Assembly (NCBI GenBank): GCA_017311185.1
Contig: JAESUZ010003506.1
Coordinates: 62,001-126,000 of the forward strand
Source: Proteles cristata cristata
Taxonomy: Eukaryota; Chordata; Mammalia; Carnivora; Hyaenidae
Direction: 5' to 3'
Length of the DNA stretch: 64,000 nt
Numbering within the stretch: position 1 is the stretch's first letter; each line of letters starts with the position of its first letter. A model generated the notes under the pieces. The model had not been told where the DNA came from, made no database searches, and was given only the letters and a program-made list of their open reading frames with translations. Position numbers and translations under genes: made by a program. Below are positions 8,458 to 58,843 of this stretch, piece after piece.

Positions 8458-8493
<36 letters not shown>

Positions 8494-10448: not shown

Positions 10449-10531
10449 GTTTAAAGATTTTAGTGACAATACTTTTCTTATATAAGCCTCACAACAACAT
10501 TGGTAGATTACACTGTAGACTAATGTTAGTA

Positions 10532-11141: not shown

Positions 11142-11245
11142 AGTAATGTTTTATAAATGAATATACTGAGGCTCAAAAAGGTTAAAATGACTAGTCCCAG
11201 GTCACACAGACCTCAAATACCAAAATGGTAAAGTACAGAAAGACT

Positions 11246-11618: not shown

Positions 11619-11619
11619 A

Positions 11620-11656
<37 letters not shown>

Positions 11657-11699
11657 CAAAAGAAAGAATCAAGGAAAGAAAGAGAAAGAAAGAAAGAAA
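11619..11699. repeat. (AAAG)n microsatellite
   Basis: Interrupted tetranucleotide repeat, purine-rich on the + strand. Confidence 0.97.
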
Positions 11700-11983
11700 C
11701 TTAGTTTGAGGTAAACACTTAAATGACAGCACAATAATAAATTTCTAAAGAAAACAAAGATGTTTGGAAATGTCCCTAAATTGGAGATTGCTTGTTAACA
11801 GGTAACAGGGCTTGCTTCTGAAGAGTCTTCATTGAAAGATATCTAGACTAGAGGGGCTATGGGCCAACCTGAGGTACCTGATATGACCTATAAGTCATTA
11901 CAAGTTAGAATAACGTGTCTGTATCCACACAAGATTGAAACTATAGATAAAAACTGAAAAAGGTAAAGAGAAAAATGGTCAAG

Positions 11984-12979: not shown

Positions 12980-13246
12980 GTTAAGGGATATTGGAACTGG
13001 AGAGCATAGATGTCAGGGCATAGGAGGAGGTATACTCTTAGTGAACAGCAAAGAGCATATATGGTACCCCATATATTACCCCTTATAGGGAGCTGTCTGC
13101 TCCAGCCCTGCAGATGTTCAGCTCTGATTGGATGCAGGGTGGTGACTACCAATTCAACTATCTTTGGTTTTAGTTTAATTCCATTTAGTTCCTAAGGCCT
13201 GGATAATTTGAATACCCAAGTCTCTATCTCTCTGTCTCTATCTCTC

Positions 13247-13290
13247 TCACACACACATACACATACACACATACACATGCACGTGCGCAT

Positions 13291-13338
<48 letters not shown>
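13247..13338. repeat. (CA)n microsatellite
   Basis: About 90 bp of CA repeat with a purine-pyrimidine interruption (GCACGTGCGCATGCAC) that also has Z-DNA-forming potential. Confidence 0.97.
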
Positions 13339-13340
<2 letters not shown>

Positions 13341-13870
13341 ATCCTTTCATCCTTTGTATGTGAATTTCTCAACCGTTAGCCTTTTTCCTGGGTGGTGATT
13401 CTTTGAGTCAGATCCTCAGGCCTCTGCATGGTGAGGAGATAGGGAAGGCAATGGCTCTCTGTTTGAGAAGCAATTTCAGGTTTTATGCCATGAATGCATG
13501 TTGGTGAGTGTATGTACCCACTGAATGCTCTGAAAGCATGGGACATTATGCACTAATTTCCTATATCTAATTCTCCCAGAAGCAAAGTTACTATACCAGG
13601 AATGAAAAAACCCATGTGTACATAACACAGGGAAAAGGACTCCCTTTTCCCATCTCTCTTACCCAGGGACCATTATATGGTGTAGTAGAGTGATAGTAAA
13701 TATGCTATCCCTGCTCTGGCAAACATCAATAATCAATTATAACCGTGTTTTATATCAATCCATAATGCAGCCTTCCAATCTTCAACGAGCACTCTAAGCA
13801 GCTACCACCCAACTGATCAGTGACTGTATCAAAAAAGAAAACCATTTACTTTCCTTGATGTGAAGAAAAG
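13339..13870. other. Unassigned sequence
   Basis: No recognised repeat, exon or RNA gene. Confidence 0.4.
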
Positions 13871-13874
13871 GGCA

Positions 13875-14045
13875 GGGCTTTAGAATCAGAAACACATGGG
13901 TTCTCCTTTCACTTTTTCCACTTACAAGCTCTGTAATCTTTGGCAGTTTATTTCTCAGAGCCTCAGTTTCCTTATTTGTGAAATAGGGAAATTAGAATGG
14001 TCATGAAAATTCAGTGTCATAAAGCATTTATAACATAGTGGATGT
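13875..14045 (+). repeat. MIR
   Basis: AGGGCTTTAGAATCAGAAAC, CTTACAAGCTCTGTAATCTT and CCTCAGTTTCCTTATTTGTG follow MIR order. Confidence 0.8.
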
Positions 14046-14560
14046 CCACACCTGTTATTGCTGAGTTCCAGAATCTTACATTTAACATGTCTGCCTTTTG
14101 GGCTTTTCTTTAAAACAGGGCAAGGGCAATGAGGACTTCTCAGCAGCTGGTATGGCATAGTTTCCAGAAAGGAGATGCATGCCCCAAGGACAAACCTTAC
14201 CAGTCTTGGAAATTTTCTAAGGTCAGACTGGTAAGGAGATCTTGTTTTCCTTGACCCTGAGTGTCTCCATTTTTTTTATCCCCAATCAGCTCCTTCTCCA
14301 GCATTCCCTAGTTCACTATTTTATTTCCTGGCAACTAAAAAATTCTTCAAGAGATTTAATCAAAATGAAGCATCATTTCATTGAAAGCCACTGTCCTCCT
14401 TTCCTTTTGCCTCTTAGAGTGCTCCATTGCAGGTTTCTTTGCTGGCTTCTCTCATTCGGTCCAGACTATGGGGCTCTTAAGCCTTACATCCTAGGTTGGC
14501 TTCTCATTCCAAATTCTGTCTTTGGTCATTCCCTGCCACTCCTAGAACTTTAACTCCTAG
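14046..14560. other. Unassigned sequence
   Basis: A 103-codon open frame at 14242-14553 has no recognisable domain and shows no start or splice context of a real gene. Confidence 0.4.
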
Positions 14561-14562
14561 TT

Positions 14563-14998
14563 GCATAGTTTGTCAGGCCTGTCGTAAAATAAGCAACACA
14601 ATTGTATGATGTAAATAAGGGAAATATGCCTCACATTGTTGGAGCCAACAAGTCCAAAATCAAGCATCAGTAGGGTTGGCTCCTTCTGAAGGCTATGAGA
14701 ATCTGTTTCATGCCTTTTCCTAGCTTTTTGTGGTTTGCTGGAAATCTTTGACATTCCTTGGCTGTCGCTGTATTATCTTCACTTGGCTTTCTCTCCATGC
14801 GTGTCTATGTCCAAATTTCCCCTTTTTAATAAGAACACCAACTATATTGAATTAGGGGCCCACCCTACTCCAGTATGACCTAATCTTAACCAATTACATT
14901 TGCAATGACCCTACTTCCAAGTAAGTGCACATTCTTAGGTACTGGAGTTTAGGATTTCAACATATGAATTTTAAGGGGACACAATTCAGCCCATGGCA
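14563..14998 (-). mobile_element. MLT1/MST-type MaLR LTR
   Basis: Reverse-complement MaLR landmarks: TTGTCAGGCCTGTCGTAAAA at the start, CCACCCTACTCCAGTATGAC, and TTCAACATATGAATTTTAAG with GGGGACACAATTCAGCCCAT at the end. Confidence 0.85.
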
Positions 14999-15049
14999 CC
15001 CATCATCTGATGACTTCCCCCAAAGACCATCAATACTACTGTTTCTACT

Positions 15050-16060
15050 GATATTCAGACTTATGTATCAGCTGCCTGCTGGACTAGTCCATCTACATGT
15101 CTATCCCTCAGGCATCTCTGACTCAATCAAGATGCTTTCCCTGCTACTGCCACTAGGATCTCACCTAAACTTGGCTCTCCTCCGTGATCTCTGTTGTTAG
15201 TTTTACCATCTTCTCAGTTATGTAACTGTGAAGCTTCAAACTCTTTGACTCCCTCTTCATGTCCCCCATATAATCATTTCTCAGGTGTTGCAGATTCTAG
15301 CTTTATTATATCTTAATTATGTCTTGTCCTGTTCTCATTTGTCCTAATTGAAGGCCTTCACTGTTTTTCACCTGGACTGGTGCAGTAGCCTCCAGCTGTC
15401 TCCCTGTCCCCCATCTCACCTCCCTCTGGTCCATTTTCCCTTATATACAAGAGTTACTGTCTTTAAGCACAATTCTTCCAGTGGCTCCACTCCTCATAAG
15501 CAGCTGCTTTCCCATTTTTTCCTGTGGCAATCCTGGTCTCCATAATGCCCTCCCCTTACATTAACCTATTTAGACTTTTAGCTGAAAGGCCACATCTTCC
15601 ACCCCTGTATCATGTGACCACCTTCATTTGGACTGTTTATACCTCTCTAACAGCACTTCACATATTCTACCCTGAGAGCTGTATAGTTATATGTTATCTC
15701 CATTATCACCCTCCTTCCCCTATACACATACTAATACAATGTAATTGTTTTATTTATTTTATTTTTTATTTATTTCTGAGAGAGAGAGAGCGTGAGCAGG
15801 GGAGGGTAAGAGAGAGAGGGAGACCCAGAATCTGAAACAGACTTCAGTCTCTGAGCTAGTGGTCAGCACAGAGCCCGACCTGGGGCTGGAACCCAGGAAC
15901 CATGAGATCATGACCTGAGCCGAAGTCACATGCTTAACCGACCGAGCCACTCAGGTGTCCCTCAATTTAATTGTTTTAAGGCAAGTTCTGAATATTCCTC
16001 ATCAGAGTATTCTACATGTCTGGCTTGCTGCAGTGAGCCAGTAAATATTGGTTGAGTGAT
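15050..16060 (+). repeat. L2 fragment interrupted by a SINE
   Basis: Diverged L2 text (CACCTGGACTGGTGCAGTAG and CCAGTGGCTCCACTCCTCAT) runs to about 15752. The SINE at 15753-15962 interrupts it, and an L2-like end (AGTAAATATTGGTTGAGTGA) follows near 16039-16058. Confidence 0.6.
15753..15962 (-). mobile_element. Felid SINE in L2
   Basis: Reverse-complement SINEC. A 16-bp duplication with one mismatch (15737-15752, 15963-15978) fixes the ends. Confidence 0.95.
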
Positions 16061-21491: not shown

Positions 21492-21694
21492 GAATGGTGT
21501 TGAGTTTATAATGCAGAAGAAACTATTTGTAAAAAAAAATAAACAAGTAAATAAAATATAAATAAAAAATAAAATGACTGATTAGATTAATTCCATCTGC
21601 TACCTTAATTCCCCTTTGTTGTATAACCTCACCTATTCATAGGTTCCAAGAATTAGGGCATAGACATTTTTGGGGGACCTTTATTCTGCTTACC

Positions 21695-21912
21695 TCATCA
21701 TGTGTCAGGCACTATTCTAAGTGCCTAACATGTATTAACTGCAATTAATCCTCAAAATCAGAATTCGGAAGTAAAGAATATTAGTATTTTCATTTTATAG
21801 ACAAGGAGACTAAAGCATGCAGAGTTTAAATGGGATCCGAAGGTCCCACAGCTAAGAAATGGTGGAGTTAGAATTTGAACCCAGGAAATGGAGCTCCTAA
21901 GTTTTACTCTTA
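21695..21912 (-). repeat. MIR
   Basis: TGTGTCAGGCACTATTCTAA, GACAAGGAGACTAAAGCATG and AGAATTTGAACCCAGGAAAT follow reversed MIR order over nearly the full element. Confidence 0.88.
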
Positions 21913-22289
21913 TCCACCCAACTGTTACAGGTGTTCCAATCAAATTGGGGTGGGGTCTTATTCAACTGTATATAACCCACTGCCTAGCACTGAGCCAGGC
22001 TCACCTGTCTATTGAAGATAATCAAGTAAATAGGTCTTTATTTAAGGTAGACCTGGTATGTATATACTCGACTAGAGGCTAAAAGGTAAAGAGTATAATT
22101 TATGAAAATGAAATAAGTTGCCTAGGGCAGGAAGAAGGGCCAAGAGAAAAAATGCTCCATTTTTAAGATGTTTTACAAGCATAAGATATTATAAGGTCCT
22201 ATAAATTATATTGTTCCATCTAGCATTTATCTTTACCACCCCAAGGCCAAGAACTTTTATGCTTGTTTTATCTGGTAGGAATTACATAT

Positions 22290-22515
22290 AGCTGGTGGTA
22301 ACAAACATGTGATATAACAGTGGCTCAAATAAGGCAGGCATTTTTGTATCATGTGAAAGAGACCTACAGGTGGGTTGTTCAAGGCTGGTATGGTGACTTC
22401 ATCATCCTTAGCACATGGTTTTAATCCTCAAGGTTGTAAGATAGCTACTGGAATTCCAGCTGTTACATCCATATTACAAACATTGGGAAGGGCACAAATG
22501 TCACATACTACCTGT
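22290..22515 (+). repeat. Unclassified mammalian repeat-like segment
   Basis: Phrases such as GGGTTGTTCAAGGCTGGTAT and TTAGCACATGGTTTTAATCC feel like a common mammalian interspersed repeat that I cannot name. A relative may lie at 46150-46685. Confidence 0.4.
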
Positions 22516-22520
22516 CACCA

Positions 22521-22760
22521 TTTTTAAAAATTGATGTATAGTTGACACACAGTGTTACATTAGTTTCAGGTGCACAGCAAAGTGTTTGACAAGTTTATAT
22601 ATTATGTTATGCTCACCACAATTGTAGCTTACATCTGTCACCATACAATACTCTTATGATACCATTAACTATATTCCCTATGCTGCACCTTTTATCCTCA
22701 TGATTTATTCATTCCATAATTGGAAATGTATTTCCCACTCCCTTTCACCCATGACTATTG
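22521..22760 (-). mobile_element. Old L1 (L1M-type) 3' fragment
   Basis: TTAGTTTCAGGTGCACAGCA, CTCACCACAATTGTAGCTTA and CACTCCCTTTCACCCATGAC match old L1 3' UTR phrases in reverse orientation. Confidence 0.72.
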
Positions 22761-23330
22761 TCACTTTAAGGAGCTCTACCTAAAAGCTTTCACTGACCTC
22801 TTATTTGCCACTCTTAGTAAGCAAAAGCAGCGAGGCACATTCATACTTAAGAGAAGGGAAAATAAGTTTTTGGTAGATAGATCTCTACCACAACTGTTAA
22901 GACTGAGAAGCAAGCCTCTTACTTGCTTGGTCCATGACCCTGCCTCCTTTGCTCATATTCCTCCTGAAAAACCTGGAAAGGGAGCTTCTATTTCTTGTTT
23001 GGAGAATGCAACAAGGTTTAGGGCTGGGAAGGTCAACCACAGGTGCCTATAGGGGCTTGACTCGTAAGTCACATGAGAGATATTAGACTGAATGTATTTG
23101 AGAGTGGTAGGGAGTATGGCATTATAATACTAAAGGAGGCAGCCACAACTCAGTTCCACTGGATCCTGGCCGTTTGGGAAAGTGGGCATATTTTACTGGA
23201 TCTTCTGATTTTGTTCAATGCAATTTGGAAATCCAGATTTTCTTGTGCAATATTCTGCTTTGTAAATGCCTTTTTAAATTTGTGGGACAAACTGAACAAA
23301 GAATCTAGCCCCAGAACACCAGCTTTCAAC
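22761..23330. other. Unassigned sequence
   Basis: Overlapping open frames (22720-23052 and 23073-23396 on +, 23150-23440 on -) are unrelated to any family I know. Confidence 0.4.
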
Positions 23331-23334
23331 CACT

Positions 23335-23465
23335 GGTGTAATGTAAAGAGTAAAAAATTTGGAGAACAAGATTCCAGCCCCAGATATGCTGTGTGACCAT
23401 GTATAAGTATCTTTCTGATTCTGGGCTTCAGATTCCCCATCTTTAATCTTACAGTGTTTGACTAA
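23335..23465 (+). repeat. Possible MIR fragment
   Basis: CCAGCCCCAGATATGCTGTG and TCAGATTCCCCATCTTTAAT resemble the MIR core. Confidence 0.5.
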
Positions 23466-24060
23466 AGATTTTTATGGAGTCTTTGAGCCTTGATGGTCTA
23501 TGATTTTTTTCCTTATATGTAATATCCAAATGAAAGAGTACTTTCTTTAAAGTTTTTTAGATGTTTACTTTAAGTTTTACTTTTTAGGAGATATAAGCCA
23601 TCATACATTGATTTACCATCTCTGTAATTGTTATTTGGGAAAAATATCTGGTCAGTTATTTGCTATATGCTGTCAAGACATCTTAGAACCTATTTGCTTC
23701 ATCCAATTCACTTAGAAACTTTAAGACAACTGATAGTTCTATTGAACTTAACGTTTTTTAACATGCTGTGTTTCAAGGGTGACATTCATATAATAATGGT
23801 TGGTATCACTATTTAACTCAATTATTTCTGGTAACTTTTTAGCAAAGTTTTAGGGAAGGATATGGGAGGCTTGGAATGAGTCAAGTCTAAGAGTAATTCC
23901 TTTGGGGGAACATGCAGGAAACAGAGAGCAGATGACAAAATGAATATAAAATTAATCATATGAAACTACTATGTTTTAGCATCTGCAGGTATTGTATATT
24001 AATTATATCATTTGATATACACACAAACGATTAAGAGATATTATTTTTTCCATTTTATAG
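23466..24060. other. Unassigned AT-rich sequence
   Basis: No confident repeat. A weak reversed MIR resemblance near 23970-24060 is not enough to call. Confidence 0.35.
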
Positions 24061-24065
24061 TGTGG

Positions 24066-24240
24066 AACAGTGCTGATAAACTTTTTCTTTAAAAGTCCAG
24101 AGAGTAAATATTTTAGACTTTGCAGGCCCCATTAAGTCCCTGTTGCATAATTTTTTTAACAACCTTTTAGAAATGTATCAAAAATGTATAAAAATAGACC
24201 ATGGGCAGGATTTAGCCCACGCCTGCTAGTGCCTTGTGTA
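24066..24240. mobile_element. hAT-type MITE fragment
   Basis: GTGCTGATAAACTTTTTCTT, TAAATATTTTAGACTTTGCA and AGGATTTAGCCCACGCCTGC match a common mammalian hAT MITE in the opposite orientation to the copy at 47429-47735. Confidence 0.65.
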
Positions 24241-24462
24241 GAAGGTTAAGAGCACTGGAGACAGCAGGGTTAAAATAGTGGCTCCACCTGTCACTCTGCA
24301 ATTGAGCAAGTCACTTAGCCTCTCTTTGCCTCTGTTTCTTCATCTGTAAAAATGAGATAATTAAAGAATTTACCTCACAGAGTTGTGAGGATTCACTGAG
24401 CTATTATGTTGTAAGTGCTTAGACCAGTGCTTCATGCTTAGTATTTGTTGAATGAATAAGAA
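24241..24462 (+). repeat. MIR
   Basis: Near full-length MIR: GAAGGTTAAGAGCACTGGAG, TTGAGCAAGTCACTTAGCCT, TCTTCATCTGTAAAAATGAG and GTTGTGAGGATTCACTGAGC. Confidence 0.93.
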
Positions 24463-24799
24463 GCCTAGAATTCATCTTGATATCGAAGAGACATGTTAGG
24501 GGAGTGAAGCCTCTCTAGTGGCATGATTACACCCTATGGGGATCTACTCCCCCTACATCTGTGGGCCAGGTTTTACAATTTGGCTCACTATTCCAGATGC
24601 TCTGCTTTCTGTATCATATGCCTCAGATGGCACACCAAGCATACAGGATTGTTGGCGAATCCAGCCCAGATCCATATGCCTTTCAAACTGGAAACTTGAT
24701 GCCACACTGCCTCTATATAGGCCACTTAGGGAGCTGCTGGTTAGGGAACAAACCTTTCCTCTTCCCTGAGAACATGTACCACCATTGTATAAGCTTGCC
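24463..24799. other. Unassigned sequence
   Basis: No recognised repeat or gene; it leads into the L2 below. Confidence 0.4.
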
Positions 24800-24804
24800 A
24801 TGGG

Positions 24805-26120
24805 CTAGACCCAGCCTGACCCCTAAAAGAACCTCTCTCACAGCACTTGACAAAGTTGATCACTCCCTCATCCTTGAAATTCTGTCTTCCTTGGTTTCCA
24901 GGACACCACACTCCTGGTTTCAGTCTTATCTCACTGATCACTCCTTCTAATACTCCTGTGCTTTTTTTCTCCTCATTTCCCCATCTCTATATGTAGAAGA
25001 TCCTAGGGCTCAGCCCTTGGACATCTTCTACATTTAGACTCCATTTTTTGGTGATCTGTGGCTTTAAATAACATTTATACATTAATTTCTCCCAAATTTA
25101 TAGCTCAGCCTGGCCTCCCTTGACACACATCTAACTTCCTACTTAACTTCTCCACTTAGATATCTAATGAGCATTTTGAACTTAATGTGCCTCAAATTGA
25201 GCTCCTATAAAACCCCAGATCCTCTTCTCCTGCACTTTTCATTCAGTTAATAGTAACTTCCAGATACTTCATTCTAGATGCTCAGACCAAAATCCTTGAT
25301 GATTCACTTTCTTACACCCCACATCCAATCCCTCAGGAAACCTGTTTCTTCAACCTTTAACATTTCTGTAGCATCAATTACTTCTCACAAATCCCGCTGC
25401 CATCACCCTAGTCTAAACCAACATCATTTGTCACTAGGAACACTACATTATTCTCTTTACTGTACTGTTTCCTCCCTTTACCTCCTGAAGTCAATTCTCT
25501 ACATAGTAGTCAGAGTGGGTTTGTTAAAACTTAAGTCAAATCACGTCACATCTCATGCCTCTGCTTAAAACCCTTCACATACCTCCTAACTTCCTCAGAG
25601 TAAAAGCCTAATCCTCAAAATAAACTATAAGACCTTACATGATCTTTTACCTTTTACCTCTATGACTTGATCTCCCACCACAGTCTCCAGTGCTCGTTCC
25701 ACTCCAGTCACACTGTTCTCCCCTCTTCTTTAAAGCTACCAGGCACACTCCAGCCTTAAGGCCTTGCTTTCTATTTCTTTCGCCTAAAATGCTTGGCCTC
25801 AGATACCTGCATTGCTTTCTTATACTGGTCTGATCTAGTTCACATGTCTCTTTCTCAGTGAGATTGTCCCACACTATCCTTGTAAAAATTGCACACTTGC
25901 TACTCCCATCTTACTCGTATTTTTTTGTCCCCAACAAGTATAATCATCTGACATACCATAAGTGTTATTTATTTGTTTCTTTGTTATTTGTCTCTCCCTA
26001 CTACAATATAAGCTCCATGAAAGCAAGAATTTTGACTGTTTCAGTCACCAAAAAATCCCCAATGCCAGGAACAGGAAGTTCTTAGGACATAGAAGCTACC
26101 CAGTAAATATTTTTTGAATC
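24805..26120 (+). mobile_element. L2 LINE, 1.3 kb with 3' end
   Basis: It carries both the coding and 3' portions of L2. The 5' part still translates to a diverged RT core, with LDKVDHSLILEILSSL in the 24561-24950 frame. Later landmarks are CCCCACATCCAATCCCTCAG near 25315, GTGGGTTTGTTAAAACTTAA near 25515 and ATATAAGCTCCATGAAAGCA near 26005. The end is CAGTAAATATTTTTTGAATC. It is too decayed to encode protein. Confidence 0.88.
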
Positions 26121-26549
26121 AATATATAAAAATAACTGCTCTCTCCCAGTGCCTCCTTATATTGGTTTCCCTCTCATCAAGAATGTACAGTAGACCTAAC
26201 TACACTGAGAGGATCCAGAGGCAAGTTTGCAGAGGAATCACACCCCAAAAGGGGAGAAAGAGTGATGGAAAATAAGCAAGTGGTCTTATCCCTGCTTGTG
26301 TTTTATTTGTCTTGCTGCCAGTGTTTCATGTGGCTTTTTCATTCTAGGTCCTGAGCTTTGGAAACTGGTATATTTTCACTGCCCCTAACACAGTCTCTAC
26401 CCCCCCAACCCGGGCCCCCTTTTCCTCCTGGCCATCCTGGATATTAGACCCCAAAACCTTACTCTATGATAGTATCATATTCCTTACAGGTGTGAAGCAC
26501 AGGCACACCTGGCTGCTGGTAGAGAATAAAGGCTGTATGGGGCCATTAG

Positions 26550-26550
<1 letters not shown>
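26121..26550. other. Unassigned sequence
   Basis: No recognised repeat or gene upstream of the GT microsatellite. Confidence 0.4.

Positions 26551-26551
<1 letters not shown>

Positions 26552-26602
<51 letters not shown>
26552..26602. repeat. (GT)n microsatellite
   Basis: About 25 perfect GT units. Confidence 0.98.
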
Positions 26603-26604
<2 letters not shown>

Positions 26605-26769
26605 ACTATATAGTTTGCATAATTTTTTCATCTATTGTGTATTGGTATTAACCCATATGGTCTGCAAAAGGTCTGGCAAGGTCACTCGCCATCCTTAGAG
26701 GACCTTACTGTAATCCCTTCAAACTTATGCTTATCTCCAACTCCCATTTAGTCACCATCACCAGAGCTA

Positions 26770-26914
26770 ACAGGTGTCAGAGCACTTGGCTAAAGGTTTT
26801 ATGTGCATTCACTTATTTACTCTTCACAGCAAATATTTGCTATATGTCTTATTATTATTCTTATTTTCCAGATGAAGAAATTGAGATTCAGAGACATAAA
26901 GTCACTCAAGTATT
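26770..26914 (-). repeat. MIR fragment
   Basis: TTATTTTCCAGATGAAGAAA and TTGAGATTCAGAGACATAAA in reversed MIR order, cut by the SINE at 26915. Confidence 0.78.
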
Positions 26915-36405: not shown

Positions 36406-36632
36406 GGGGTGCCTGGGTGGCTTAGTCGGTTAGGCGTCCGACTTTCGCTTAGGTCATGATCTTGCGGTTAGTGGGTTCGAGCCCCGCGTCGGGCTCTGTG
36501 CTGACTGCCAGCTCAGAGCCTGGAGCGTGCTTCAGATTCTGTGTCTCCCTCTCTCTCTGACCCTCCCCTGCTCGCGCTGTCTCTCTCTCTCTCCTAAAAA
36601 TAAATAAAACATTAAAAAAATTAAAAAAAAAA
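36406..36632 (+). mobile_element. Young felid SINE
   Basis: SINEC close to the young consensus. Perfect 15-bp duplication AGAGTCTGAGTTTTC (36391-36405, 36633-36647). Confidence 0.98.
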
Positions 36633-40237: not shown

Positions 40238-40317
40238 TGATGTCATATTTTAATTCCTTCTTGCTGAAGCTGCAACCTCTGTTTTTATAATCCCATGCTT
40301 GCCTGACTTATCCTGTG

Positions 40318-40510
40318 AGTCAGAAGTCTTGGATTCTTCTCTTGTTTAGCTGTGCTACCTTGGGCAAATGTCTTTCAATCTTTGGGTTTCAGTATTTATG
40401 TATGTAACAGGGGCTAATTAATGGTCCCTATCATGTTCTTCTCACAAGGTAATTGCAAGGAGTACATAGAATAATCATGGGTGTGAGTGTGACCCACAAC
40501 ACTTAGCAGA
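40318..40510 (+). repeat. MIR
   Basis: TGTGCTACCTTGGGCAAATG, TTTCAGTATTTATGTATGTA and CACAAGGTAATTGCAAGGAG follow MIR order. Confidence 0.75.
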
Positions 40511-41039
40511 TGTAAAGGTGCCAGCCTAAATTGCATTGCCCAGAGTTAGGGGCATCATGAAAAGTTGGGTGGTTTCTCCATTTGCCTGTTTTGCTGATAT
40601 TATTTTGATTCATTCTCAGCCACACAAGCAAATGGAAACTTCATCCGTCAACAGGTTACCTTTCATATAACTCAGGATGTGAGGGAGAATCCTGGAATGG
40701 TGTGTTTATATATGTGCGTGTATGTGGGTTTATGAGCTCTTGCCTGCATGTGCACGCACTTGTGCTAGCAAAAAGAAGCTTGGAAAGCTGCAGAGGGTTA
40801 AGTTGAGGCTTTATCTTTTTTATGTGATCTTAGATAGGTCCCTTCCATCTTCTAAACCTCCATTTATCTGTAAAATGAAGATACTAATGCCTGTGTTTAC
40901 AGGGTTGTTCTGAGAAAGCCCCCAAAGAGTACACAATAGGAGAGAAGATCTGAGGGGAGTATGCAGAGGGAGAGCTGGGGGAAACGGAGGCAAGAGAGTG
41001 TTGGCATAGTTCCACTGGGGCAGGATCTTTTTATTCCAG

Positions 41040-41700
41040 AGGATGGCTCAACACCTCTGGCAACTTTGGGGAGGACTTTTCGCTGACTCGACACAATTGG
41101 CACAACCGGGGAGACCCGCAATAAGCAGCATCCAACTAATGCTCTGGGTGGGGGACAGGAAGAGGTGGCAGCTCTGGTGGTGATCATTTACCCCCATCCT
41201 CTCCCTGCACCCCACCTCCCAGTTCTGAAGCCTTGGCAGGGGACAAGGCAGTCGGTTGGGACCCTCCTCCTACGCTTTTCCCAGCGGAGCACCCCTGAAG
41301 CTGCAGGGCGGAGAGGCAGAGCCTGCCAGCTGGGATGGAACAACCTGACTAAAGGGGAGGTCCGAGGCGGAGGGGATTGGGCTGTAGGGCTGTGGAGGAG
41401 GGGAGGCGGAGGGGGCGCTTGGGCTTTCACTGGATCCAGCCCTGCCGGCCCAGCCAGCCAGCCTGAGACAACCCGCGCCGGCTACCCAGGCCTCAGAGAA
41501 GCCGGAATAAGCGGGCACCATGCAGTGGATAAGGGGCGGATCAGGAATGGTGAGTGCATATAACCCTGGCTAACCCTCTCTGAGCCTCAGTGCCCTAGCC
41601 CCACTCCAGCTCCTTCGCCAACCGCCCTGCCAGGAGCCCCCTGGCTTCTGCCCACCACCCTCTCCGCTGTCCTTGAGACGCTAGCGAGCTTGCTGTGGCC
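41040..41700 (+). promoter_or_regulatory. ARHGEF9: CpG-rich promoter and 5' UTR region of ARHGEF9
   Basis: This is the only GC-rich, CpG-dense stretch in the window, with roughly 28 CpGs by eye in about 650 bases against a strongly CpG-poor background. It has G-rich Sp/KLF-like runs (GGGGAGGCGGAGGGGGCG near 41400) and no interspersed repeat. No TATA box stands at a sensible distance upstream of the ATG, so a dispersed CpG-type start is likely. The transcription start cannot be placed from sequence alone. The 5' UTR probably lies within about 41250-41519. Confidence 0.68.
41520..41549 (+). CDS. ARHGEF9: ARHGEF9 (collybistin) coding part of alternative first exon
   Basis: The ten codons read MQWIRGGSGM and end exactly at a splice donor, ATG|GTGAGT, with GT at 41550, so the exon ends in phase 0. 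An in-frame TAA at 41508-41510 sits four codons upstream, so the ORF cannot start earlier. The start context is GCACCATGC, with A at -3. From memory, one collybistin isoform (about 523 aa) begins with this peptide and continues LITGDS into the SH3 domain; the other isoform starts MTL at the same junction. Collybistin is a neuronal SH3-DH-PH guanine nucleotide exchange factor for Cdc42-type GTPases. It recruits gephyrin and GABA-A receptors to inhibitory synapses, and the gene is X-linked. Seen here: peptide, phase, donor and CpG-rich setting. Recalled: the isoform identity. The SH3 exon is not visible in the remaining 22 kb, which fits a long first intron. Confidence 0.83.
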
Positions 41701-42765
41701 ATTTTAGGAGCCCTTGCTCACTCGCCTGGTAAAGAAAGACCCCTCCCATTCGCTCCGTATTTCTATCGATTCCCTCCTTCCACCCACCCCCCCGCAATGG
41801 GGTGGGATAAGAGTGGGGGTCTCCTGGAAGAACAATGAGGCAAAGGGGGTGGCAGAGGGTCTCTCTCAGAACAGTGGGGCTCCAGGGAGGCCGGTTAGCT
41901 GGTTCGGGTTTGAGAGGGAGAAGATAGTCAAAAATCATGGGATTGTAGAGGAGGCAGCATGGGGAGAGCTTCGTGATCCGCCAAACAGGCTGCATGTACC
42001 CCTCACCCTGGCCAGTCTCGGGGCTTGAGGGCCAGGGAGTGACTTTCAGGGAAGCTGCATAGGGGAGCCCTTGGAGCCCTTGCTTGCTTGGGCTGGGGTC
42101 ATCCTATACACACTTGGGGTTTTGTACAGGAGAGAAAGCTGTAGATACCTCAATCCTGGAAATGGGTTTGAGCCCCATTCAGTTAAGAGAGCTCTTCCTC
42201 ACCCCTACCCCATCCAAGGAGTGTGTGCTTGTGTGTGTTTTTAGTATTGTCCTCCCACAGTTCATTGTATGCTATGGTGCTCCCTTCTTCACCTGGAGAC
42301 CTTGGAATGACTTCCCTTGCAGAGGGGAAGTGGTGGCTGCATTTTGATGCCTCTCTGATTCAGCCAAGGGTAGCTCAAGTCCGGTCAGGGACCCTGGGGG
42401 ATAAGAGCCATGGACAAGAGGCTCTTGGAGAGGAGATAGGTTGGGTCAGCAGGTGCTGATGGCAATCCTAGCCCACACTTCTGCACTACCAGCGACAACC
42501 CGCAGCTGAAGCAAAGTAGCCTGAAGCTGCTGGGCAAAAACTGATATTTAGCTATTGTTTTGCTCCTGTCCTGGAAGGGTAGAGGGAATTTGGTATGGAC
42601 TAGGACTGTACTTAGAGGAGCTGTCCTCCTTTCCTCAGGGTTTCCTTAGAATTTTGTTTCAGTGGTTATTAAAGGCATCTAGTGTATATTCCTATATACC
42701 AGGACTTTAAGAGACTTTTCTCATACCCCCGTCCTTCCCTGGATTCCCATCAAAGCTGTTTCAAG
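41701..42765. other. Repeat-free proximal intron, no recognised feature
   Basis: About 1 kb just downstream of the first exon carries no recognisable repeat and is moderately GC-rich. The open frames here (such as 41714-42028) show no family resemblance and look like chance ORFs. Intronic enhancers are possible but nothing specific is visible. Confidence 0.5.
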
Positions 42766-42769
42766 TGTT

Positions 42770-42925
42770 TGTAGAACTGGAAAGGGTTAGAGCAGGAAAA
42801 GACCTTCAAGTTCTTGTCATCCATCCAGGAAAGCTGAAACCCAGAGAATGGGAGAGACTTGCCCAGGGCCACACAACTCCATGAAGGAAAAACTGAGTCT
42901 AGCACAGGGGTCTTCTGTTTCTTCG
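42770..42925 (-). repeat. MIR3/L3-like fragment
   Basis: AACTGGAAAGGGTTAGAGCA, AAGCTGAAACCCAGAGAATG and CAGGGCCACACAACTCCATG resemble the reversed MIR-type tail. Confidence 0.62.
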
Positions 42926-43875
42926 TCATTGTCCTTCCCCACTGCTTCACAGGATTGTCAGTTCAAATGATGCTGAAAGAGGCAGAAAGGAGCTAACAGT
43001 TATGATCCTGTGAAAAAACTTTCTTCAGGATGAACTAATGCCATGAAATTTGCCTGAAAAAAAAAAAACAACCAAACAAACAAAAACAAAACCCGTGCCA
43101 GCCCTGGTATTCTTGGTAGCTCAGTCTCGGTGAGGCCTCCCTCCTCTTCTAAATATATTTTAGTATAGTGGGGCAGACTGACAACAGATTAAATTAATGG
43201 AGAGATCTGAAGTTTGCCAATTGTGTGAGAAAAAGAGTGAGTAACATATCTTGTGGAGACTATGGAATTAAAGATTGATAGGGAAGTCTTATAGTATTTT
43301 TAGGGGACTGAAGTGGTGAATATCATATGATAAAAGCATTATTTTAATAATTTTCCAGAGCTTAAGAAACTCTATTCTAGCCTAGAGGCAGTTTTTACCC
43401 TGCTACTGTTTTGATATAAATATTTGGGTCCTCATTTTTCTTACCTGTTAAATGGGGCTATTAATTATCACCAAAATTCCTTCCAGGTCTGAGGTTCTCA
43501 GATTCCTAGAAGTAAATGTTGGATAAAATGTGACTAATGGGTCATTATGAAAAAAAAAAAAGGGGGAGGAGTATTTGTTTAATCAGCATTTTATAATGTG
43601 GCCAGTCAAAGGTCTTTCCTCCATGTTCTTTTATTTGCAAAGTGTTTGGAATTTGCATTAGACTTTTTATAATAGTGAGATTACTTTTTAGAACATTTGA
43701 CCATTGTTACTGATTGCAAGTGTCACATATAAATGAAGATCCTTGAACATAAAACATCAGTAGGGATTTTTCAGAATAAAATCTGTCTCAGTAGAAAGTT
43801 AAAAAAAAAAACTGAGTTCACTTCTACTGGTAAATTCTTTAGTATATTTATTTATAACTTCTGTTTGTAATGCAA
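42926..43875. other. Mostly unassigned intronic sequence
   Basis: Short A-rich tracts at 43057-43092 and 43550-43561. 43410-43505 weakly resembles MIR. Nothing else is recognised. Confidence 0.35.
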
Positions 43876-43879
43876 TATC

Positions 43880-44018
43880 CCAGAGTGGAAAGAACAGTGG
43901 TCTCACACTTCTCAGCTCTGAAACACTTTTCAGTTGTCAAACTTTTTTCATCCTCGGTATTTTCATCCATAAAATGGGTGTAAAATACCTTATTTCATAG
44001 GTACGTACTATTGAGGCT
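43880..44018 (+). repeat. Possible MIR
   Basis: AACAGTGGTCTCACACTTCT and TTTTCATCCATAAAATGGGT resemble MIR. Confidence 0.55.
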
Positions 44019-44021
44019 GTT

Positions 44022-44376
44022 AATTCATTCAAAAATATATAGAGTAGCTACTATGAGTTGGCACTGATCTAGGTTCTGGGGAGACAGCACTGAACAAAAA
44101 CAAATTTCTCATTCTCACAAATATTACATTCTGGGAGCTGGGTGTTCACTAAACAATTACACAAATTAATATACAATATGTCAGAAGCTGCTACATGCTA
44201 AGAAGAAAAAGAAAACCTCATAAGAGGTTAAAGAGAATGATATGGATGATATATCATTAGCCAGATGACTCAGAGCCTCTGATTAAGAGACATTGGAGGA
44301 GAGATGTGAAGGAAATGAAGGAACAAGCCCTGTGCAGTTATTTAAGAGAAGCGGGTTCTAGGCATAAGAAAGAGCC

Positions 44377-44421
<45 letters not shown>

Positions 44422-44690
44422 CAGAGACATAGAGACAGAGAGATAGACAGAGACAGAGAGACAGAGACAGAAAGACATAGAGAACACAACTGATTTGTTT
44501 AAGGAACAACAAAGAAACCAATGTCCCAGGGACATTTAATCTGAGTGAAATTGGTAGCTTTTGGAAGGTAAGGAACATAATCTGACTTAAAATTTAACAG
44601 AATAAATTATAGTGGGACAAAGGAAAAAGGTGTAAGGAGGCTCTTACAATAGTCCAGGCTAGAGGTGATGGTGGCTTAGACAAGGATGAA
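44022..44690 (-). repeat. L2, reversed, with AG-rich expansion
   Basis: AATTCATTCAAAAATATATA and AGACAGCACTGAACAAAAAC at the start, ATAGTCCAGGCTAGAGGTGA at the far end, in reversed L2 order. Confidence 0.6.
44375..44487. repeat. (AG)n/(AGACAG)n microsatellite
   Basis: Purine-rich compound repeat inside the L2. Confidence 0.97.
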
Positions 44691-45674
44691 AGTGCTATAC
44701 TCAACATCATTTGTAAATAATTTGTGTCTCTCCTTTTTGAGCACCCACCTGATTCTCAGATGGTTAAGTGTGGGGCTAAAATGAACAAAGAAAGGGTGTA
44801 TGTGTACGTGTAAATTGCACATCTAAGTCAATAATCAAATGATCTGCTTTGGGTCCCTGGCCTCTGATGGGGCTGATAGAGGGTTGGTTCTATGTGGATT
44901 ACCAGTGAGCCAGTTCCTTGCTTTCTTGGATTCTGGACAATAAGATTAATTGTATTATGATTACTTTAGAGATGTGGTATACTTAGCATGTGTGATATCT
45001 GGAATAAATCATTTTTAATACTCCTTAATCTATATGACAAAATTATTTTCAATAATAATCATGTAGTGATCAGACTAATAATTATTTTATTGTTTTATTT
45101 TAAATTTTTAATCAGCAATGAATAAGAGGAATAAATTTCAGTTTGAGAGATATTTAAATTCAGTAACATCTCATCTATAACTTAAAATGTACACTTACTG
45201 AACAAAAATAGTACACATTGCAGTTTGTATTGTCTTTGCTGTTTTAAATTTTAAGCACGAATGAAAACTCCAATTGGTCAAATACAATGACAGAATTGAA
45301 GTGACTTATATTCTTTTTCTTTGATTTTACAATCCCTGTGCCATCATTGTTTACTTTGAACCTACTATTTAAATGATGGAACATATAGTACCAGAGACAT
45401 TGCAGACATGAAATGCACCTGAAGCTCCCTTGAGTGAGTCTAAAGCTTTGTAACTGGAATGAACTGAAGGGACACATGTAAAGTCTGTGTTTAAGGGGTG
45501 CTACTGAATCAACTTCTATGTAGAATATAGTTTTATTAAAGTATAAGTAATAAAGATGCTGATTTATAACTCAGTAGTAACAACAATTGTTTAGAATTTT
45601 GACCAAAATAGGTGTTTTTTTTTTTTTTCCAGGGAGGAGTATTTTATTACTGACATTGTTTAAAATTGGGTTCA
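44691..45674. other. Repeat-poor intronic block
   Basis: About 1 kb without any repeat I recognise, apart from a poly-T at 45616-45629. No exon-like frame. It is a reasonable place to look for conserved noncoding sequence. Confidence 0.4.
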
Positions 45675-45897
45675 GGGGGGCCTGAGTGGCTCAGTCGGTT
45701 AAACGTCTGACTTCGGCTCAGGTCATGATCTCTCCGTTCGTGGGCTCGAGCCCCACGTTGGGCTCTGTGCTGACAGCTAGCTCAGAGCCTGGAGCCTGCT
45801 TCATGTTCTGTATCTCCCTCTCTCTCTGACCCTCCCCTGCTCATGCTCTCTCTCTCTCTCAGAAATAAATTTTAAAAAACATTTAAAAAATAAAAAA
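45675..45897 (+). mobile_element. Felid SINE
   Basis: SINEC with head GGGGGGCCTGAGTGGCTCAG. Near-repeats AAAATTGGGTTCA (45662-45674) and AAAATTGCTGGTTCA (45898-45912) flank it. Confidence 0.95.
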
Positions 45898-47735: not shown

Positions 47736-48439
47736 ACTTCAATGCCCTAGAGTTACTATGGCAGTGCTCAAGGAAAGGAGGTCGGCAGGAGTAGCCAGGA
47801 ATTTGGGTCTCCAACCTTTGATCAGTAAAGAGCATATGGTTTTTGCTTTAAATAGTTTATCGTCAAGTTGGTTTCCATATAACACCCAGTGCTCATCCCC
47901 ACAAGTGCACTCCTCCATGCCCATCATCCCCCTTCTCCTCTCCCCCACCCCCAATCAGTCCTCAGTTTGTTCTCAGCATTCAAGAGTCTCTCATGGTTTG
48001 CTTCCCTCATTCTTCCCCACTATTTCTCCCCTTCTTCTCCCCAACAGTCCTCCGTTAAGTTCCTCCTAATCCTCCTATATGTGCAAACATATGGTATCTG
48101 TCCTTCTCTGCCTGACTTATTTCGCACAGCATAACACCCTCCAGTTCCATCCATGTTGCTACACATGGCCAGATTTCATTGTTTCTCATTGCCATGTAGT
48201 ATTCCATTGTATAGATAAACCACATCTTCTTGATCCATTCGTCCGTTGATGGAGAGTGCTGCTAGAAATAAAATAAAAAAAAAATTCTTTAAAAAAAAAA
48301 TGCTGTCTTTTTTCCATTGGATACTCTTTCCTGCTTTGTCAAAGATTAGTTGGCTGTATACTTTTGGGTCAAATTCTGAGTTCTCTATTCTATTCCATTG
48401 GTCTATGTGTCTGTTTTTGTGCCAATACCATACTGTCTT

Positions 48440-48654
48440 TTTTTTTTTAAACGTTTTATTTATTTCTGAGAGAGATAGAGACAGTGTGAGCATGGGAGGG
48501 TCAGAGAGAGAAGGAGGTACAGAATCTGAAACAGTCTCCAGGCTCTGAGCTAGCTGTCAGCACAGAGCCCGACACGGGGCTCGAACCCAAGAACTATGAG
48601 ATCATGACCTGAGCTGAAGTTGGATGCTTAACCGACTGAGCCACCCAGGTGCCC
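48440..48654 (-). mobile_element. Felid SINE in L1
   Basis: Reverse-complement SINEC with duplication CCATACTGTCTT (48428-48439, 48655-48666). Confidence 0.96.
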
Positions 48655-48797
48655 CCATACTGTCTTGATATTGACAGCTTTGAAGTAGAGGCTAAAGTTG
48701 GGGATGGTGATGCCTCCCGTTTTGTTTTTCTTCTTCAAGATTACTTTGGATATTCAGGGTCTTTTGTGGTTCCATACAAATTTGAGGATAGTTTGTT

Positions 48798-49485
48798 CTA
48801 GTTTTGAGAACAATGCTGGTGCAATTTTGATTGGGATTGCATGGAATGTGTACATTGCTTTGGGTAGTAGTACATTTTACCTATATTTATACTTCCAATC
48901 CATGAGCATGGAATGTTTCTCCATTTCTTTGTATCTTCTTCAATTTCCTTCATAAGTTTTCTATAGTTATCATTATACAGATCTCCTATATCTTCGGTTA
49001 GGTTTATTTCTAGGTATTTTATGATTTTTTGTGCAATTTTGAATGGGATCAATTTCTTGACTTCTCTTTCTGTTGCTTCATTATTGGCATATAAAAATGC
49101 AACTGATTTCTGTGTGTTGATTTTGTACCAGGCAACTTGGCTGAATTCCTGGATCAGTTCTAGTAGGCTTCTGGTGGAGTCTGTCGGGTTTTCTATGTAG
49201 AGTATCATGTCGCCTGCAAAAAGTGAAAGTTTGACTTCTTCTTTGCCAATTCTGATGCCTTTTATTTGTTTTTGTTGTCTTATTGCTGATGCTAGGACTT
49301 TCAGCACTATGTTACACAACAGTGGTGAGAGTGGACATCTCGGTTGTTTTCCTGATTTCAGGGGGAAAGCTCTCCATTTTTCCCCATTGAGAATGATGTT
49401 AGCTGAGGGTTTCTCATAGATGGTTTTTGTGATGTTTAAGTAAGTTCCTTCAATCCTGACTTTCTTGAGGGCCTTTATTAAGAAG
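48798..49485 (-). pseudogene. L1 ORF2 RT fragment, catalytic Asp lost
   Basis: The fragment reads [19 protein letters not shown], then a palm region with [33 protein letters not shown] and [11 protein letters not shown]. The catalytic FADD is FAGD here, so the first aspartate is glycine and polymerase activity is lost. The open frame extends to 49568 only because an inserted L1 3' UTR happens to be open; those first codons are not RT. Confidence 0.88.
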
Positions 49486-49628
49486 GAGACTCTTGAATGC
49501 CAAGAACAAACTGAGGGCAGATGGGGTGGGGGGAGGGGAAGGAGGGTGATTGGCATGGAGGAGGGCACTTGTGGGGATGAGCACTGGGTGTTATATGGAA
49601 ACCAACTTCACAATAAACTACTTAAAAA
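49486..49628 (+). mobile_element. 143-bp L1 3'-end insertion
   Basis: Forward L1 3' UTR (GAGACTCTTGAATGCCAAGA to ACAATAAACTACTT and an A tail), with short duplication AAGAAG (49480-49485, 49629-49634), inserted antisense to its host L1. Confidence 0.88.
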
Positions 49629-49660
49629 AAGAAGAGATGCTGTATTTTGTCAAATGCTTT

Positions 49661-49882
49661 CTTATAAATTTTTTAATGTTTTATTTATTTTTGAGAAGGA
49701 GATATAAACAACGTGAGCAGGGGAGGGTCAGAGAGAGAGGGACACACAGACTCTGAAATAGGCTCCATGCTCTGAGTGAGCTGTCAGCACAAAGCCCTAT
49801 GTGGGGCTCGAACCCACGAACAGTGAGATCATGACCTGAGCCGAAGTCAGATGCTTAACCGACTGAGCCACCCAGGTGACCC
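49661..49882 (-). mobile_element. Felid SINE in L1
   Basis: Reverse-complement SINEC with duplication TCAAATGCTTT (49650-49660, 49883-49893). Confidence 0.95.
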
Positions 49883-50313
49883 TCAAATGCTTTTTCTGCA
49901 TCTATCGACAGGATCATATGGTTTTTATCTTTTATTTTGTTCTTGTGATGTATCCCATTGATTGATTTGTGAATATCGAACCAGCCCTGTAACCCAGGAA
50001 TGAATCCCACTTGAACAAGGTGGATAATTCTTTATATGTGCTGTTGAATTCGAATTGCAAGTATCTTGTTGAGAATTTTTGCATCTGTATTCATGAAGGA
50101 TATTGGCCTGTAGCTCTATTCTTTTGCAGAGTCTCTGTCTGGCTTGGGAATCAAAGTAATGCTACCTTCATAAAATGAGTCTGGAAGTTTTCCTTTGATT
50201 TATATTTACCGGAAAAGTTTGAGAAGAATAGGTATTAATTCTGTTTTAAATGTCTGGTAGAATTCCCCAGGAAAGCCATCTGGCCCAGGGCCCTTATTTG
50301 TTGGGAGATTTTT

Positions 50314-50828
50314 AAAAAAAGTTTATTGTCAAGTCGGTTTTCATATAACACCCAGTGCTCATCCCCACAAGTGCCCTCCTCCATGCCCATAACCCCACTT
50401 CCCCTCCCCCCACCCCCATCAGCCCTCACTTTGTTCTCAGCATTCAAGAGTCTCTCATATTTTGCCTCCCTCCCTCTCCCCCACTATTTTTCCCGTTCTT
50501 CTCCCCCACGATCCTCTGTTAAATTCCTCCTAATCCTCCTATACGTGTAAACATATGGTATCTGTCCTTCTCTACCTGACTTATTTCGCTCAGCATAACA
50601 ACCTCAAGTTCCATCCATGGTGCTACACATGGCCAGATCTCATTCTTTCTTATTGCCAAGTAGTATTTCATTGTATGGATAAACCACATCTTCTTCATCC
50701 ATTTGTCAGTTGATGGACATTTAGGCTCTTTCCATGTTTTAGCAAACCATGAGAGGCTCTGAATGCCGAGAACAAACTGAGGGCTGATGGGGGTGGGTGG
50801 GAGGGAAAGGGACTGATGGGCATGAAGA
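50314..50828 (-). mobile_element. Rearranged nested L1 3' insertion
   Basis: 50314-50740 is a reversed L1 3' end with poly-A tail complement on the left. 50741-50828 is the L1 3' UTR in forward orientation. The host continues on both sides. Near-duplicates TTGTTGGGAGATTTTT (50298-50313) and TTGTTGGGGGTTTTT (50829-50843) bound the whole insert. Confidence 0.85.
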
Positions 50829-51761
50829 TTGTTGGGGGTTTTTGATATCTGATTCAATTTTTTCACTAGTTATGGGTTTGTTCAGACTTTGAATGTCTTC
50901 CTGTGTGAATTTTGGCAGTGAGTGTGTGTTTAGGGATTTGTCCATTTCTTCTAAGTTGTCCAATTTGTTGGCATATAATTTTTCATAGTATTCCCTGATA
51001 ATTGCCTGTATCTCTGAGGGGTTGGCTGTAATCAGTCCATTTTCATTTATGATTTTGTCTATTTGAGTGCGCTCTCTTTTTCAGAAGCCTGGGTAATGGT
51101 TTCTCAATTTTGTTTATTTTTTCAAAAAACCAACCCTTGTTTTCATTGATCTGTTCAACTGTGTCTTTTGTATCTATATTCTTTATTTCTGCTCTGATTT
51201 TTATTATTTCTCTTCTCCCACTGGGTTTGGGGTGCTCTTGTTGCTCTCCGTCTAGTTCCTTTAGGTGTGCTGTTTGATTTTGTACTTGTGCTTTTTCTAA
51301 TTTCTTGAAAGAGGCCTGGAGTGCAATGCACTTTTCTCTTAGAACTTCCTTTGCCGCATCTCATAGAGTTTGGATTGTTGTATTTTCATTTTCATTTGTT
51401 TCCATATATTTTGTAATTTCTTCCCTAATTGTCTGTTTGGACCATTCCTTGTTTACTTGGGTGTTTGTTAACCTCCATATTTTTGGAGATTTTCCATATT
51501 TCTTCCTGTGATTGATTTCATGTTTCATAGCATTGTGATCTGAAGTGTGCATGGTATGATCTCAATTCTTTAATATTTATGGAGGGCTTTTTTTTATGTC
51601 CCAGTATGTGATCTGTCTTGGAGAATGTGCAATGCACACTTGAGAAGAAAGTGAATTCCATGGCCTCAGGATGTAGAGTTCTAAATATATCTGTCAAATC
51701 CATCTGGTCCAATGTGTCATTCAAGTCCATTGTTTCTTTAGTGATTTTCTGTCTAGTTTAT

Positions 51762-52347
51762 CTATCCAATGCTAAGTGAAGTATTAACGTCCCCTGCAAT
51801 TAGCACATTCGTATCCATAAGACTGTTTATGTTTGAGATTAATTGTTTTACATATTTAGGTGCTCCTATATTTGATACATAGACATTTATAATTGTTAGC
51901 TCTTCCTGATCGATAGACCCTATAATTATCATATAATGCCCTTCTTCATCCCTTGTCACTGCTTTTACTTTAAACTTCAGTTTGTCTGGTGTAAGTATAG
52001 CTACTCCAGCTTTCTTTTGACTTCCAGTAGCATGATAGATATATCTCCATCCCCTTATTTCCCCCTTATTTTCTATCTGATGGTGTCTTCCTGTCTAAAA
52101 TGAGTTTTTTGTAGATAGCAAATAGATGGATTTTGTTTTTTTATCCATTCTGCTACCCTATGTCTTTGATTGGGGCATTTAGTTCATTTACATTCAGGCT
52201 TACCATTGAAAAATATGGGTTTAGAGTCATCATGTCCTTTGTGGGGTCATGCTTGTGGTAGTGTCTCTGGTATCTTGTGTTCCTTGCAACATTTCCCTCA
52301 GAGAGTCCCCCTCGGGATTTCTTGTAGGACTGGTTTAGTGGTGACAA
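51762..52347 (-). pseudogene. L1 ORF2 endonuclease-domain remnants
   Basis: Two open pieces cover the N-terminal APE-like endonuclease that nicks target DNA. 52153-52347 holds SLNVNELNAPIKD, the ORF2 start region. 51762-51959 holds TRDEEGHYMIIIGSID, NIGAPKYVKQLI and AGDVNTSLS, where GDFNT is usual. Stops and frame breaks between them show it is not functional. Confidence 0.8.
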
Positions 52348-52600
52348 ATTGTTTCAATTTTTGTTTATTTGTTTATTTGGAAAGGACTTTTATATGTCCT
52401 TCTATTCTGAATGACAAGCTTGCTGGATAGAGCATTCTTGGCTGCATATTTTTTTCTGTTCCTCACATTGAATATATCCTGCTATTCTTTTCTGGCCTGT
52501 AAAGTTTCAGTAGATAGGGCATAACCACTCTTATAGTTTTCCCTTTGCATGTTAGGGCCCTTTTCTCCCTAGCTGTTTTCAGAATTCTCTCTTTGTCCTT

Positions 52601-53045
52601 CTATTTGGCCAGTTTCACTATGATATGTTGTGCAGAAGATCGATTCAGGTTACATCTGAGGGGAATTCTCTGTGCCTCTTGGATTTCAGCGTCTGTTTCC
52701 TTCCCCAGATTGGGGAAGTTCTCTGCTATAATTTGTTCAAGGACTCTTTCAGCGCCTTCCCTATCACTTCTTCTTCTGGAAGTCATATGATATGGATATT
52801 ATTCTGTTTCATTGTATCGCTGAGCTCTTGAACTCTCCTTTCATGTTCCTGGATCAGTTTATTTCTCTTTAACTCAGCTTCCTCTTTTTCTATAATTGTG
52901 TCTTCTAAATCACTTATTCTCCTTTCTGCCTCTTTAATCCATGATTTATTATGCCTCTCATTTATAACATTTTTTAATTCATCACAACTATTCTTAAGTT
53001 GATAGAGTGTTATTTTAAGGAAATTGTTTAAGTGAATACAGAGGT
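52601..53045 (-). pseudogene. L1 ORF1 fragment
   Basis: ORF1p is the RNA-binding chaperone of LINE-1. 52783-53045 encodes coiled-coil sequence (EAERRISDLEDTIIEKEEAE, RNKLIQEHERRVQELSDTMK). 52601-52786 continues with RRM/CTD-type sequence (VLEQIIAENFPNLGKETD, IQEAQRIPLRCNLNRSS). The N-terminus is missing at the 5' truncation; codons at 53046-53151 come from the adjacent unrelated repeat. Confidence 0.85.
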
Positions 53046-56572: not shown

Positions 56573-58038
56573 TTCAAACTTAAATGACCATCAACTTAAT
56601 ATAGACTGTTTTATGCAGAAGAGGTTCTATAAAAAAACCTAATGGAAACCCTATATCAAAAAGCATGAATAAATATGGAAAGCGAAAAAGAGCAAGAAAT
56701 CCAAATATACCACTAAAGAAAACCAGCAAACCATGAAAGAGAGAAGGACAAGAAAGGATCAGAGAAAATCTTCAGAACAACCATAAAACATGTACTAAAA
56801 TGGCAGCAAACACATATCTTTCAATAATTATTCTGAATGTAAAGACTAAATGCTCCAATCCAAAAACATCGGGTGTCAGAATGGATAAAAAACCAAGACC
56901 CATCTATATGCTGATATACAAGAGAGTAATTTTAGAACTAAAGTCACCTGCAGACTGAAAGTTAGGGGATGAAGAAACATCTATCATGGAAATGGATGTC
57001 AAAAGCAAACCAGAGTAGCAATCCATATATTAGAAAAAAATAGACTTTAGAGCAAAGACTGTAACAAGAGACAAAGAAGGTCCCTATATAATCATAAAGG
57101 TGGGGGAATCCAACAAGAAGTTACAACAACTGTAAATATTTATGCATCCCATACAGAAGCATCCAAATATATAAAACACTTAATAACAAACTTAAGGGAA
57201 CTAATTGATGATGATACAATGATAGTAGGGGACTTTCATACCCCACTTACATCAATGGACAGGTTATCTAAACAGAAAATCAAAAAAGGGAACAATGGCT
57301 TTGAATGACACACTGGAATAGATGTATTTTAACAGATATATTCAGAACAGTCCATCCTAAAACAGCAGAATACACTTTTTTAAGTTCACATGGAAACTTT
57401 TCTAAATAGATCACATATTAGCCCACAAAAGAGGTCTCAGCAAATTAAAAAAGATTGAAGTCATACCATGCATCTTTTCTGACTACAATGCTATGAAACT
57501 AGAAGAAAACCACAAGAAAAAAAATCTGGAAAGACCACAAAACACGGAAGTTAAATAAAAACAATGAATGGGTCAACGAGAAAACAAAAGAAAAAAAGTA
57601 CATGGAAACAAATTAAAATAATAACCAAACCATCTAAACCTTTTGGACGCAGCAAAAATTGTTTTAAAATGGAAGTTTATATCAATAGGGCTACCTCAAG
57701 AAGCAAGAAAAACCTCAAACAACCTAGCCTTATACCTAAAGGAGCTATAAAAAGAACAACAAACAAAACCTAAAACCAGCAGAAGGAAGGGACTAATAAA
57801 TACCAGAGCAGAAATAAATGATATAGAAATTTAAAAAAAAAGAAAAGATCAATGAAATCTGGAGATGGTTCTTTGAGAAAATCAATAAAATTGATAAACC
57901 TCTAAACAGAGTTATCCATAAAAAAGAGAAAGGACTCAAATAAATAAATTCTCAAATGATAGAGGGGTAATAACAAACAACACCACAGAAATACAAACAA
58001 TTATAAGAGAATATTATGAGAAAATATATGCCAACAAA

Positions 58039-58236
58039 TTGGACAACCTAGAAAAAATGGATAAAATCCTAGAAACATATAACCTACCAAAACTGAAACC
58101 GAAAGAAATAGAAAATTTGAAGAGACCAATTAGCAGCAAAGAAATTGAATCAGTTATCAAAACACTCCCACCAAACAAAAGTCCAGGACCAGATGGCTTC
58201 ACAGGCAAATTCTACCAAACATTTAAAGAAGAGTTA
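58039..58236 (+). pseudogene. L1 ORF2 RT N-terminal fragment
   Basis: The frame holds [20 protein letters not shown] and KFYQTFKEE, the conserved start of the L1 RT domain. It is then cut by a SINE at 58237, and most of the RT beyond is deleted from this copy. Confidence 0.85.
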
Positions 58237-58466
58237 GGGGCGCCTGGGTGGCTTAGTCCGTTGAGCGTCCGACTTTCGCTTAGGTCATGATCTCCTGATT
58301 CGTGGGTTGGAGCCCCGCGTCAGGCTCTGTGCTGACTGCCAGCTCAGAGCCTGGAGCCTATTTCGGAGTCTGTGACTCCCTCTCTCTCTGGCCCTCCCCT
58401 GCTCACGCTGTCTCTCTCTCTTTCTCCTAGAAATAAATAAAAATAAATAAATAAAAATAAAAAAAT
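58237..58466 (+). mobile_element. Young felid SINE in L1 RT
   Basis: SINEC with duplication AAAGAAGAGTTA (58225-58236, 58467-58478). Confidence 0.97.
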
Positions 58467-58843
58467 AAAGAAGAGTTAATACCTAGTTTCCCAAACTATT
58501 CTAAAAAATAGAAAAATAAAGAAAACTTCCAAATGTAATTCTATGAGGTCAGAATTACCCTGATACCAAAAGCAGTTAAAGACACCATGAAAAAAGCAAG
58601 TATAGCGCAATATCTATCCCTGATGAACATAGATGCAAAAATCTTTAACAATGTATACATACCCACAATGGAATATTATTCATATGTAAACAAAGAATGA
58701 TATCGTGTCATTTATAATCACATGGATGGAGCTGGAGAGTAGAATGCTGAGTGCAATAAGTCAGAGAAATATTAATACCATATGATTTCGCTCGTATGTG
58801 GAATTTATGAAACAAAAGAAACAGGAAAAAGAAAAAGAGAGGA

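Follow-up and report, generated by a model that had tools for sequence, protein, structure and literature searches.

Collybistin, the product of ARHGEF9, is described as an exchange factor for Cdc42 that brings about the clustering of gephyrin at inhibitory synapses, with isoforms that vary at either terminus as well as in the SH3 exon (PMC6422930). Alternative first exons of the gene have been reported in human RNA (PMC7275609). In one account, the three main isoforms differ at the C-terminus only, the presence or absence of SH3 aside (PMC5673238), so that, as described there, the first exon does not separate CB1, CB2 and CB3. The human gene is placed at Xq11 (PMC4719118).

Chain A of PDB entry 4mt6 ("Rho guanine nucleotide exchange factor 9") has MQWIRGGSGM as its residues 1-10, with LITGDSIVSAE directly after. 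ARHGEF9 isoforms beginning MTL (P0017), MYD (P0007) or MELDQ (P0004) likewise enter the SH3 stretch at LITGDS, but their N-termini differ from MQWIRGGSGM. The paralogue ARHGEF4 (Asef) has a related SH3 domain (PDB 3nmz, 2dx1 and 2pz1), and its three listed rows all match from query residue 10 onwards, leaving MQWIRGGSG unmatched.

A ten-codon exon and its collybistin counterparts

The window, the whole 64-kb stretch of aardwolf DNA that was analysed, carries ten codons for MQWIRGGSGM, which almost certainly are the coding part of one alternative ARHGEF9 first exon, whose phase-0 donor would join it to the SH3 exon or to the exon after it (Table 1). An earlier note on this DNA had read the peptide here together with an in-frame upstream stop and a phase-0 donor, and all three are present in the + strand. 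Between this stop and the ATG at 41520 there is no other ATG in the frame; the start codon has A at -3 and C at +4 in the context GCGGGCACCATGC. The tenth codon is also ATG, giving an exon/intron border of ATG|GTGAGTG at 41549/41550, and reading through the donor into the intron yields seven further residues followed by a stop. The string MQWIR has a single occurrence in a six-frame translation of the window. Overlapping the exon in a different frame is a stop-to-stop open frame of 158 codons (41087-41563, + strand), probably a by-product of high GC content.

Table 1 Features at and around the MQWIRGGSGM exon, with examples of the repeats in the window
Feature	Position	Strand	Basis or remark
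ARHGEF9 (collybistin) first exon, coding part (almost certain)	41520..41549	+	ten codons, MQWIRGGSGM; translation and peptide identity
Splice donor GTGAGTG, phase 0	41550..41556	+	sequence; fits known protein junctions; predicted use in aardwolf
In-frame upstream stop TAA	41508..41510	+	starts 12 bases upstream of ATG 41520
Presumed proximal promoter and 5' untranslated part	41251..41519	+	GC content and motifs
Stretch passing the 200-base CpG test	41595..41812		downstream of exon, in presumed first intron
SINE copies (examples)	1191-1380, 6865-7032, 36406-36579, 45673-45843		blastn

A public protein search gave 698 matches, with 120 cluster representatives listed for ARHGEF9. The named representatives are mostly predicted isoforms, and so reflect the content of gene models rather than RNA. 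Eight of the 120 begin with exactly MQWIRGGSGM at residue 1. In five of these, from kangaroo rat (P0001), sheep (P0070), red fox (Vulpes vulpes, isoform X7, P0074), beluga (P0079) and snow leopard (Panthera uncia, P0087), residue 10 is followed by LITGDS of the SH3 exon, while in the other three, from two bats (P0117 and P0120) and horse (P0119), it is followed by LWVNQED, the SH3 exon being skipped. The residues directly after position 10 are such that a phase-0 donor after Met10 fits both junctions. Close forms appear in four further representatives among the 120 listed, as judged by eye in the part of the listing examined. Two are placental proteins, P0118 and P0116, each differing by a single residue (one has MQWIRGGAGM, one MQWIRGGSAM). 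The other two are from marsupials and share MQWLRGGPGM, with which P0009 begins and which in P0005 lies within a longer predicted N-terminus. The remaining 108 have different N-termini or start inside the protein. Three carnivores were seen among the listed representatives, red fox and snow leopard with the exact start and Ursus arctos (isoform X2, P0090) with a different one.

At the peptide level, all ten residues and the initiating Met are thus the same here as in the 4mt6 protein, which we take to be that of the rat, and as in the red fox and snow leopard proteins, whose junctions after Met10 also agree with the phase-0 donor. The earlier note had matched the peptide to an alternative collybistin N-terminus, and this is borne out by the structure and by the eight representatives; a carnivore collybistin with this start, on which its reading turned, exists as predicted proteins in red fox and snow leopard. 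Gene models of related species, carnivores included, already contain the exon, and its peptide stands in a solved structure; nothing new has been found in this respect, and the note's description of the exon as hidden does not hold for those gene models. What the exon provides, being one that a list of open reading frames would miss, is a position for the window within ARHGEF9, towards the 5' end of the gene, and a direction of transcription. From the position of the human gene, the window would lie on the X chromosome.

Codon 2 of the exon is CAG (Gln). A patient variant, c.4C>T p.Q2X, is tabulated in a paper on a different ARHGEF9 variant, with refractory seizures, polymicrogyria, severe psychomotor retardation and ataxia as its phenotype (PMC4719118). 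Since p.Q2X needs Gln at position 2, the variant as tabulated is compatible with the MQWIRGGSGM form but not with the MTL (P0017) or MYD (P0007) form, and by its numbering it appears to lie in the human counterpart of the exon described here. The original report of p.Q2X is said to be that of Shimojima in 2011. A further variant, p.W65X, is placed in exon 1, with no indication of which of the first exons that is (PMC9095487).

Expression model and alternative explanations

Under the proposed model, RNA polymerase II would start within a GC-rich, TATA-less stretch upstream of the exon and read the + strand. Splicing in phase 0 would then join the ten-codon exon to the SH3 exon (GSGM|LITGDS) or, where the SH3 exon is skipped, to the next exon (GSGM|LWVNQED). 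For the aardwolf, the upstream transcription start and the splicing are predicted from the features in Table 1 and the protein junctions, and exon 2 would lie beyond the downstream end of the window.

No further ARHGEF9 exon, the SH3 exon (LITGDS...) included, was found in the 64-kb window by tblastn, with a full-length ARHGEF9 and all 120 listed representatives as queries, or by pattern searches. The 120 representatives yielded 272 rows with E of at most 5, and among the best 60 of these, which were inspected, only low-identity rows, regarded as chance matches, appear apart from 41520-41552. The top row, from a bird protein (P0091; E 0.034; minus strand, 42433-42546), has 42% identity and was set aside as a chance match. 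Exact patterns for the MTL or MYD start followed by a donor had no match in the window, nor did patterns covering the first residues of the MLKAVTSK and MSEGKLPKIH starts, and tblastn of longer alternative N-terminal forms against the window gave no plausible exon. With no other exon found in the window, it is the peptide and the splice signals that tie the block to the rest of ARHGEF9. A degenerate DNA pattern for exon and donor had no match in prokaryote and viral contig collections, as expected; an Rfam search gave no match at gathering scores, and a text search of one literature collection for the peptide MQWIRGGSGM found no paper.

That no ARHGEF9 exon was found in the next 22 kb is what one would expect if the block were a duplicated or inactive copy of the first exon, with the working copy elsewhere. 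We regard such a copy as very improbable: the reading frame, the upstream stop and the donor are all intact, a retrocopy would join exon 2 rather than an intron donor, and a long first intron would be a simpler reason for the missing exon 2.

The ten-residue match might instead be a coincidence in a GC-rich block that is something else, for example an enhancer, and the shortness of the peptide lends this some weight, as tblastn of the eight exact N-termini against the window gave E values of only 0.11 to 0.18. Against it stand the expected numbers of copies of MQWIRGGSGM on both strands of the window, 3.5e-10 at the window's base composition and 4.7e-9 under a GC-rich composition of the analyst's setting, figures which apply to one named peptide, although any of many N-termini could have been proposed; even with a 100,000-fold correction for the choice of peptide, a chance match would remain remote. 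The start, the donor and the phase are, moreover, as the known protein requires, and we consider the odds of coincidence negligible.

GC content and the presumed promoter

The GC content of 41251-41550 is 0.66, and the 14 highest-GC 300-base windows (step 100 bases) all lie between 40901 and 42600. Upstream of the exon are GGGCGG at 41306, GGAGGCGG at 41402 and ATTGG (reverse CCAAT) at 41376, while TATA[AT]A has no match in 41001-41560. Because sequences resembling GC boxes and reverse CCAAT motifs occur often in GC-rich DNA, they lend weak support to a promoter. The presumed promoter and 5' untranslated part contains one upstream ATG, at 41335, which is out of frame and encodes MEQPD. A putative promoter upstream of the exon can fairly be inferred. 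It is conceivable, though we think it unlikely, that in the aardwolf a GC-rich promoter, TATA-less and of the non-CpG-island kind, drives the MQWIRGGSGM exon, and that the isoform could in consequence be regulated unlike those from other first exons.

According to the earlier note, no other block in the 64 kb is CpG-rich, a claim that the counts contradict. In 300-base windows, the 15 CpGs at 41251 are equalled at 1051 (15) and approached at 10851 (14) and 36301 (13); in 500-base windows the exon block is highest with 22, against 20 at 10601. A CpG-island test (200 bases, GC > 0.5, observed/expected > 0.6) is passed at nine places by the analyst's grouping. One of these is near the exon; of the eight in other parts of the window, seven overlap SINE matches. 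The eighth, at 10525-11152, is CpG-dense, passes the test in parts and overlaps no SINE. No 500-base window passes anywhere in the window.

The only passing stretch near the exon, with CpG observed/expected up to 0.65 and GC up to 0.62, lies downstream of it (Table 1). At 41251-41550 the observed/expected ratio is 0.47, short of the value for a CpG-island promoter, and neither the exon nor the sequence immediately upstream is covered by a CpG island. A CpG island was rejected as evidence for the promoter.

Repeats in the window

The exon lies in a gap of 5419 bases between self-similar repeats (40240-45658), which the earlier note had described as a repeat desert. This gap is only the second longest in the window, after 8956-15741 (6786 bases) and barely ahead of 21508-26895 (5388 bases), as determined by self-comparison of the window, to which old single-copy repeats are invisible. 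The desert is a weak argument, and we rejected it as evidence.

Three long repeat blocks with broken reading frames (4875-8955, 48296-52940 and 56808-58651) look LINE-1-like by eye, and we presume them to be of this kind. A tRNA-derived SINE gave 18 blastn matches, the query copy included, between 1191 and 58410, and its copies resemble what we take to be a carnivore (feliform) SINE family. ARAGORN calls tRNA genes in eight of the copies (four Glu and four Arg). The copies fall into at least two groups, with TTTCGCTTAGG in five, TTCGGCTCAGG in five and neither exact string in eight.
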